From: an uncultured Akkermansia sp.
GTDB lineage: Bacteria > Verrucomicrobiota > Verrucomicrobiia > Verrucomicrobiales > Akkermansiaceae
Reading direction: 5' to 3'
Assembly (NCBI GenBank): GCA_947629715.1
Contig: CANRET010000019.1
Coordinates: forward strand, 1 to 35,039
DNA length: 35,039 bases
Below are positions 21,648-23,727 of the stretch, one piece after another; within the stretch, counting starts at the first letter, position 1; the number at the start of each line of letters is the position of its first letter. The notes under the pieces are model-generated. The model made no database searches. It was given only the letters and a program-made list of their open reading frames with translations, and had not been told where the DNA came from. Made by a program: the position numbers and the translations under genes.

Positions 21648-22207
21648 TGCGAAACGAAGCGCGGTTGCCATTTACGATCTGTACAAAACTTCCACCGACT
21701 GTTCCAAGGATGCGGGTTAGCTTGCCTCCGGAATAAATGTTGATGCTGGCTGTCAAATTGGTATCGTCGGACTGCGGATTGAATAGACGCTGACTGGCAT
21801 GGTCGGGATCACCACTGCTTCATTTCAGCTCTCCTCTCAAATCGACCGTTGGGAGCCCCAACCCTGCAATTGAACAAACCCGGTTGCACATCCCCTTGTT
21901 TATTTCCAATAAACAGCCCATCCCAACACGGATGCTGTCGGCATCTCCGAAGAAATCAGCGCCAACTTCTGTTGTTGCGTCTGTTTTGGCGCCCTCCTTG
22001 TCTTTCTTCACGATGGTAAGTTTCACATTCTTGTAAATCACTTACTTATAACTCCTGCCTCAAAAAGCCCGTTTCGTTACCTGTAAAGTACTGGTCTTCT
22101 CCATCGCTGCAGGGTTCTTTACTGAACGTGAATTGGCCAAATGCTGACAATACACACAGCATCATCATGAGGGTAGTGAACAATGTAACCGGTAGATGAA
22201 GTTTCAT
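21637..22207 (-). pseudogene. Broken gene for a small secreted protein
   Basis: Three protein-like segments lie in line on the minus strand. The first (22207-22046, 53 residues) opens with a clear signal peptide (MKLHLPVTLF...LSAFGQ) and stops. In another frame a second (GTG 22041 to 21820) encodes IYKNVKLTIVKKDKEGAKTD and onward; an AGGAG lies 10 bases before its GTG. After an in-frame TGA at 21820-21822 the same frame continues as SSGDPDHASQRLFNPQSDDT through NIYSGGKLTRILGTVGGSFV to a stop at 21637, inside the end of the pump gene. Read together they suggest one secreted protein of about 190 residues broken by a frameshift and a stop. Alternatively the first two are separate small genes. 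No family recognised. Confidence 0.5.
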
Positions 22208-22291
22208 GATAAAGCAGGATTGAGTTTTCTTCGGAGCGGCGGGCAAACCTTAATTTCTACCACCATGACGCATCCGGAAAAAATCTGCATA

Positions 22292-22464
22292 TTTGCCAGA
22301 CGGAGTTAAGCCTATTTAAGATATTGATAATAACTGAAAATAAAAAATATATCGAACACATTTATCCGGCACAGAGAGGTCACCCCTTCAATAAGTCATT
22401 GAACCAGCGAGAAAAATATCAAATATAGATTTGCCATACGTATGGCAAATACGTGTCTGGCAAA
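22292..22464. repeat. Four TTTGCCAKAC half-sites upstream of the recombinase
   Basis: TTTGCCAGAC at 22292-22301; TTTGCCATAC at 22430-22439 abutting its inverse GTATGGCAAA at 22440-22449 (together with flanking bases a perfect 22-bp palindrome, 22429-22450); and the inverse GTCTGGCAAA at 22455-22464, overlapping the GTG start. The outer pair is inverted and about 150 bases apart. The arrangement suggests binding sites for the recombinase itself or for a repressor of it. Confidence 0.7.
22399..22429 (+). promoter_or_regulatory. Possible recombinase promoter
   Basis: TTGAAC (22399-22404) and TATAGA (22424-22429) with a long 19-base spacer. The 22-bp palindrome starts at the end of the -10 box, where a bound protein would block initiation. 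Tentative because of the spacing. Confidence 0.35.
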
Positions 22465-23571
22465 AAATACAACCCGAAATCTAATATGAAAACACAATCG
22501 AAACGAATTACAATACAAGAAGAGGCAATGATCGTTCTTCTGCGGTCGTTAAAATTGCAGGCGACAGACATTGTGCATTTTGTGCAAGAGGGATTGAAAC
22601 GGGGGCATGGAAAACTGAGTTGTGCAGAGCGCTGTCTTGAACTGGGACAGGTGGAAATGCAACGTAATCAGCGCACGGTGAGCTTTGCTCGTGCGGTGCA
22701 GGCAGCAATGGCAGAACGTAGTGAGCGTCGCGCGCGCACTCAAAGGGATTTTCGCTATCTCACGCGAAAGTTCATAACGTCGTGCCCCGGATTAGCCCGT
22801 CGGCGTGTACGCAGTATACGCAGCGAGGATTGTGAAGAATGGATCAGGAAAACTTTTTCAACTTCGAGTCAGTGCAAGAAAGGACGCGCAGCTTTGAGCG
22901 CCGTGTTTTCGACAGCACGACGTATGGGCTGGTGTACAGAAAACCCCGTAAGTCGTATTCCCATTCCGCATGTGCAGGAAAAAAGCATCCGCATCCTGAC
23001 CATGCCGGAAATTAAGCATCTGTTGGCAACAGCGGAGCAGTACAAAGGGGGAAAATGTTTGGCAGCGGTAGGAATTATGCTGTATGCCGGAGTGCGTCCA
23101 TATGAGGTAGCACGGCTCACTTGGGGAGAAGTTCATGAAGACGTGGGAGTGATTTGCGTTCCGCCGCAACATAGCAAAACAGGCGGCGGACGACAGGTGA
23201 CGCTGCATCCGGCGCTGGAGAAAATTTTGCAAAAGGCGCGAAAAAAGACAGCTCCACAAAAAGAAGAACGAATCTGCCCGAGCAATTGGTATAAGCACTG
23301 GACAGAGCTGCACCGAGCGGCAGGCTGGATCGGACAGCGAAAGGAAGGAGAGAGACCCAATGCAGCTACACGCTGGCAACCGGATGTGCTTCGGCATACC
23401 TTCGCCACGCACCATTTGGCGGCCTATCGCGACTACAGAGAGTTGCAAGTGGAAATGGGGCACAGGGACACTACCCTTTTGCGCACACGATACCTGTCAC
23501 TCTGTACTCCGGTGAGGGAAGGCATTTTCGGAAAAGCATCTTCCGCAGTAACTTCCGCGTTACGCACTTGA
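22453..23571 (+). CDS. Tyrosine recombinase / phage-type integrase
   Basis: Site-specific recombinase of 372 residues from GTG 22453 (an ATG at 22486 would give 361). The N-terminal part (about 90-170) resembles a SAM-like core-binding domain (RTQRDFRYLTRKFIT...NPVSRIPIP), and the catalytic domain is about 180-355. Active-site residues are visible: Arg215 in YAGVRPYEVARL, Lys242 in SKTGGGR, Arg314 in DVLRHTFATH, His337 in MGHRD and the nucleophile Tyr347 in RTRYLSL. The first His of the usual HxxR box is Asp311, as in some integrase subgroups. No phage or other mobility genes are adjacent, so it is an orphan. Repeated half-sites lie at its start. Confidence 0.88.
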   Translation: MSGKKYNPKSNMKTQSKRITIQEEAMIVLLRSLKLQATDIVHFVQEGLKRGHGKLSCAERCLELGQVEMQRNQRTVSFARAVQAAMAERSERRARTQRDFRYLTRKFITSCPGLARRRVRSIRSEDCEEWIRKTFSTSSQCKKGRAALSAVFSTARRMGWCTENPVSRIPIPHVQEKSIRILTMPEIKHLLATAEQYKGGKCLAAVGIMLYAGVRPYEVARLTWGEVHEDVGVICVPPQHSKTGGGRQVTLHPALEKILQKARKKTAPQKEERICPSNWYKHWTELHRAAGWIGQRKEGERPNAATRWQPDVLRHTFATHHLAAYRDYRELQVEMGHRDTTLLRTRYLSLCTPVREGIFGKASSAVTSALRT

Positions 23572-23698
23572 CTTTTGGGGAGGCTGCTGCGCATTTGCCC
23601 CGCATCTTCACGTACAAGAGCTCAGTCATTCCGAGCTTGCGTCGTAAATGGTAACCGCACTTTCCGATGTGTTTGTCGTGACGGGCGCCTTGCTTGTC

Positions 23699-23727
23699 TT
23701 GCCATAGCTCATCTGAACTGCTAGAAT
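23699..23727 (+). promoter_or_regulatory. pyrC promoter, abutting the start codon
   Basis: TTGCCA (23699-23704), 17 bases, TAGAAT (23722-23727). Initiation 7-8 bases on falls on the ATG at 23735, giving a leaderless mRNA. The ATG at 23726 overlaps the -10 box and cannot be used from this promoter. Confidence 0.68.

Follow-up and report, generated by a model that had tools for sequence, protein, structure and literature searches.

The repeated half-sites upstream of a tyrosine recombinase gene in an uncultured Akkermansia very probably form part of a decayed Akkermansia phase-variation switch, a type whose intact relatives would flip a short segment to join the two parts of a split promoter. 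The window analysed is a stretch of 35,039 nucleotides. Exact copies of TTTGCCAKAC occupy 22292-22301 (plus strand), 22430-22439 (plus), 22440-22449 (minus) and 22455-22464 (minus), and the middle two join into a 22-bp palindrome at 22429-22450, so the four half-sites and palindrome of the original prediction are confirmed by exact match. When a single mismatch was tolerated, 12 matches were counted in the window, compared with a mean of 4.5 in 100 shuffles, none of which reached 12. The original prediction had also proposed a search for the half-site elsewhere in the genome, which proved unproductive: 15 exact matches were found in the whole genome versus 7 for a reversed control pattern, no genome-wide excess, and the 11 matches outside the locus are little more than chance. 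A 15-bp inverted-repeat pair at 22288-22302 and 22439-22453 flanks a 136-bp segment, each repeat holding one half-site. The locus is laid out as follows.

21650-22207, minus strand: broken MKLHLP-type surface-protein gene, the former target, with its reading frame interrupted
22282-22287, minus strand: place of the target-gene -10 box by comparison with same-genome switches, reading CAGATT (TACCCT in L165 and L166)
22288-22302, plus strand: left (target-side) recombination site, CATATTTGCCAGACG, containing the first half-site and aligning at every column with its left-side counterparts in intact same-genome switches
22303-22438, no strand assigned: 136-bp segment, its -35 end toward the recombinase
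22431-22436, plus strand: altered -35 box TTGCCA (TTGACA in intact switches), inside the half-site at 22430-22439
22439-22453, minus strand: right (recombinase-side) recombination site, reading CGTATTTGCCATACG on this strand and containing the third half-site
22455-22464, minus strand: fourth half-site by sequence, just outside the right site
22486-23571, plus strand: tyrosine recombinase, 361 aa from ATG 22486 (372 from GTG 22453), frame intact

The two window sites agree at 13 of 15 positions and differ at 2. The left site matches the family motif, CGnnTTnnnAAnnCG, at only 6 of its 8 fixed letters and was therefore missed by our motif filter and added by hand. As an inverted repeat the pair scores 13/16, and because 14 of 83 shuffles reach at least 13, the repeat score alone is no proof of the pair. 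Thus the pair lies below both the repeat-score and the motif cut-offs, yet it matches at 13/15 and is in register with intact switches. We accepted it as the ends of a switch because its segment has homologues among the intact switches of the same genome. The segment aligns end to end with two of these, L165 and L166, with local alignment scores of 85 and 91, while the best of 200 shuffles scored 36 and 37 and the inverted segment 21 and 20. Scores against L167, L168 and L173 were 61, 50 and 41, and those against L171 and L172 (17 and 22) were no better than shuffles. The original prediction had suggested that the outer, inverted half-sites might bound an invertible segment. Inverted copies do bound a segment that is of the invertible kind by its homology to switches, but its ends are the first half-site with the third, and the outer pair 22292/22455 is out of register with the switch family. 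We found no role for the fourth half-site (22455-22464), which has no visible counterpart in the orthologous locus of genome G008 and may be an incomplete tandem duplicate of the right recombination site. In that orthologue we did not find the left site, and its segment scored 43 against the window segment, where the best shuffle scored 45.

Inverted pairs of this type accompany a family of recombinases. The genome of the window contains 12 matches to the window recombinase; matches occurred in 38 of the 39 genomes searched, with 2 to 21 in each of the 24 other genomes of the genus. From the best 80 of 279 relatives found, which made up our titled loci, 79 were named Akkermansia or Akkermansiaceae and one (L094) Lachnospiraceae. 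Together with 11 loci from the own genome and 4 others these made a set of 95, in which L061 and G14C67 are one locus. Among the 83 loci with enough upstream DNA for scoring, 65 carried, upstream of the recombinase, an inverted pair that scored 14/16 or higher, compared with 1/83 shuffles and 0/83 coding stretches; the remaining 18 had no such pair. The family site reads CGnnTTnnnAAnnCG, and 71 of the 95 loci had a pair by this motif. Ten of the 24 motif-negative loci had little upstream sequence and 14, including the window locus, had the full 440 nt. One in the motif-negative group, G000:C6, has a 16/16 pair of a different motif. The recombinase leader of L050 (G014:C67) has one site in place of the two in its relative G008:C12, which looks like loss of the segment or its collapse in assembly.

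To describe the promoter layout, we analysed 70 motif pairs, omitting L132 from the 71 since both of its flanks are identical, probably through an assembly fault. A -35-like CTTG[AC] lies inside exactly one segment end in 68/70, on the recombinase side in 61 and on the target side in 7. In 69/70 a TAnnnT sequence is present 0-2 nt beyond the target-side site, and in 0/70 beyond the recombinase-side site, versus 5.1% of 2083 control windows, and removal of near-identical flanks left 57/58 and 0/58. If the two boxes were joined by flipping, their spacing would be 17 bp in 56 of the 70 pairs, 18 bp in 9 pairs and 16 bp in 4. The switches of the own genome show the same arrangement, with TAnnnT away from the -35 side in 10/10 and on the -35 side in 1/10 (counted by eye). 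A set from G004/G013 had TTG[AC] inside exactly one end in 25/33, and there the outside -10 rule was weak: TAnnnT occurred on at least one side in 14/33, and the mean best -10 match was 3.76 versus a control of 3.22 (highest control 3.58).

From this layout we infer promoter use. A tyrosine recombinase would recombine two 15-bp inverted sites of the type CGnnTTnnnAAnnCG flanking a segment of roughly 115-160 bp. In intact relatives one segment end bears a -35 box together with an A/T-rich stretch, and the matching -10 box has a fixed place immediately beyond the far site, ahead of a divergently read target gene. In the OFF orientation the -35 would face the recombinase and meet no -10. After inversion to ON it would meet the -10, and the recombination site itself would serve as the 16-18-bp spacer. 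The window segment is predicted to lie in the OFF orientation.

Both orientations occur among relatives. Segments are 72% or more identical in 159 locus pairs, and in 25 of these one segment runs opposite to the other. The segments of L068 and L072 are 97% identical when one is turned and 50% when compared directly, with flanks of 94 and 96%, and those of L090 and G000:C53 are 99% identical turned and 55% direct, with flanks of 88 (60 nt) and 98%. Thus, in sequence, the segment occurs in either orientation at near-identical relative loci, the window locus itself not being among them; layout, homology and box positions are established at this same level.

The letters of the sites follow two patterns. 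Where a locus had a single full-motif pair (56 loci, chosen without use of the centre), the three central letters were identical within the pair in 56/56 and identical between loci in 11.9%, and within-pair mismatches were confined to positions 3, 4, 12 and 13. Being identical within a pair and variable between switches, the central letters may be a crossover region that prevents exchange among switches. The arm letters track the recombinase tree, requiring 29 changes against a shuffled mean of 49.1, with 0/200 shuffles as low. A fuller reading, which we consider plausible and put forward tentatively, is that the site is the spacer of a sigma-70-type promoter assembled and disassembled by inversion, that its outer letters choose the recombinase, that its centre is a private barcode separating dozens of switches, and that the window recombinase outlived its own switch and acts in trans.

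The broken, adhesin-like gene beside the left site is the switch's former target. Searched separately, the first piece of the gene and the middle one hit the target region of L225, a switch in G008 (E values 7e-7 and 6e-6); the last piece gave no match. Like the genes that follow L165 to L168, it begins MKLHLP. The original prediction had suggested that this secreted-protein remnant could be a casualty of past recombination; the gene is indeed tied to the site as the switch's former target, but we saw no sign that recombination broke it. The window switch also lacks a working promoter that would face a target gene after inversion: its -35 reads TTGCCA, no TAnnnT lies outside the left site and the target is broken. 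Judged by these features, the switch and its target have decayed while the recombinase frame has been kept.

We scanned 16 target proteins. Their families include an autotransporter domain, a PATR repeat, two HsdM methylases, glycosyltransferase 25, acyltransferases, GtrA, nucleotidyl transferase, DEAD helicase, ankyrin and SPFH; matches to PEP-CTERM in L119 and to a barrel in L065 were below cutoff. Targets of intact relatives would range over autotransporter or PEP-CTERM-type adhesins, outer-membrane barrels, restriction methylases and glycan enzymes. Type I restriction methylases (HsdM), at L186:2893-4644 and L070:2142-3713, lie on the target side of switches, and therefore DNA modification may be phase-variable. 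At L077:2-3805 the target-side gene of a switch encodes a DEAD/ResIII helicase of more than 1200 aa.

The recombinase matches Phage_integrase PF00589 at 56.4 bits (cutoff 27.1), and an Arg, a Lys, a His-x-x-Arg, a His and a Tyr, which we take to be its catalytic residues, are conserved in the alignment. It groups with the recombinases of L057 and L058 (SH-aLRT 93), whose switches precede MKLHLP-type genes. Compared with its G008 orthologue it is 84% identical, with pN 0.101, pS 0.737 and a dN/dS of about 0.04, a rough value since dS is saturated between the two. The gene is open and, on this comparison, under purifying selection, and for these reasons the recombinase may act in trans; its frame would perhaps have been kept through service to other switches. 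Its own genome holds 9 exact matches to the -35 box plus site, versus 0 for the reversed control, and every one of the 9 has a 15/15 partner at a distance of 154-158 bp. It also holds 20 CGTATTNNNAATACG sites besides the window's own site (0 in the control), of which 18 form nine pairs, and only the pair on C53 adjoins a recombinase. We infer that the window recombinase acts on these sites, as it would have done in flipping its own segment; the other candidate enzyme for them is the recombinase of C53, which has sites of its own with the same arms.

An alternative reading is autoregulation, in which the recombinase, bound to the palindrome and half-sites of its leader, would repress its own gene. 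The sites do lie directly upstream of the gene, where bound recombinase could block transcription. However, the palindrome is conserved neither in the 84%-identical G008 orthologue nor in the leaders of paralogues, whereas the inverted pair is widespread, and the same layout occurs at switches with no adjoining recombinase, so that such an autoregulatory operator is unlikely. In the decayed-switch reading, the palindrome consists of the segment's altered -35 end where it runs into the recombination site. Two further elements of the leader read differently from the original prediction. TATAGAT, next to the palindrome, where that prediction saw a -10 box, need not be the -10 of the recombinase, because the same A/T-rich stretch recurs at switches without a recombinase beside them. 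The half-site at 22455 overlaps the start codon if GTG 22453 is the start, but not if translation begins at ATG 22486, which is likelier because paralogues begin just beyond their repeat and the ATG of the G008 orthologue matches.

It is still less probable, to the point of being doubtful in the extreme, that the recombinase moves a 2-kb mobile or invertible element ending in 21-nt repeats at 21657-21677 and 23642-23662. These inverted repeats are 90% alike, have no other genomic copy at up to 3 mismatches and lie near both ends of a stretch absent from relatives, where similarity to them stops at about 21652 and 23692-23718. Against this, they do not match the family site, a second copy of the element was not found in the genome and the G008 orthologue shares only 22387-23535. 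A common origin of the 21-nt repeats and the switch sites was likewise unsupported. The acrB-pyrC junction is particular to the window genome, and we found no relative in which acrB and pyrC flank an empty site. In G039 and G040 a different gene comes after the acrB-like gene (94-95%), their best recombinases reaching 51-53% and none being close, and in G016 and G020 similarity picks up again only at pyrC. Least credible of all is a recombinase leader that gathered unrelated half-sites by chance and decay: the pair's repeat score within the shuffle range and the lack of a genome-wide half-site excess would fit, but the whole segment is homologous to same-genome switches and a broken MKLHLP-type gene lies at the expected place.

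The decayed switch and its relatives resemble several known systems. As in fimS with FimB/FimE, a small promoter segment would be flipped by a neighbouring tyrosine recombinase. In fimS the entire promoter lies inside the invertible segment, whereas here only the -35 end does. XerC, XerD and XerA are the best family-model and solved-structure relatives of the window recombinase, but it differs from XerC/XerD in having many paralogues per genome and in scoring under the NCBIfam equivalog cutoffs (XerD 59.9 bits versus 329.6; XerC 48.2 versus 335.15).

Invertible promoters are already known in Akkermansia. Passages of one study attribute the inverton motif CGGATT..AATCCG to Jiang et al. 2019 and describe a cps1 inverton present in both orientations, with capsule controlled by one Akkermansia inverton (PMC13343947). 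Passages of another place Akkermansia in inverton group 138 with PEP-CTERM targets, attribute an Akkermansia promoter motif to Jiang et al., and state that invertases near invertons are generally not positioned to be driven by them (PMC11892184). As far as these passages describe them, those invertons share with ours a 15-bp site in the same frame and targets that include PEP-CTERM proteins (PMC13343947, PMC11892184). Unlike them, the switches described here have variable site letters (CGTATT, CGAATT and CGCTTT forms), a linked recombinase family, and -35 and -10 boxes on opposite sides of the site. The words recombinase and integrase are absent from the main text of PMC13343947, and the passages of the two studies name no enzyme for Akkermansia invertons. 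Across the titles and passages covered, which did not extend to Jiang et al. 2019, we found neither a split promoter nor such an enzyme. Against that literature, the split promoter with its linked recombinase family looks like an undescribed variant, and part of the promoter layout may already be described in Jiang et al. 2019.

With a recombinase phylogeny that tracks the site letters and a promoter completed by recombination, it becomes testable what enzyme acts on a given switch, and how many switches each enzyme serves. A case in point is G004, a genome in one contig, where G004:C1 holds 56 CGGATTNNNAATCCG sites of the CGGATT form (0 for the reversed control) and 4 recombinase matches.
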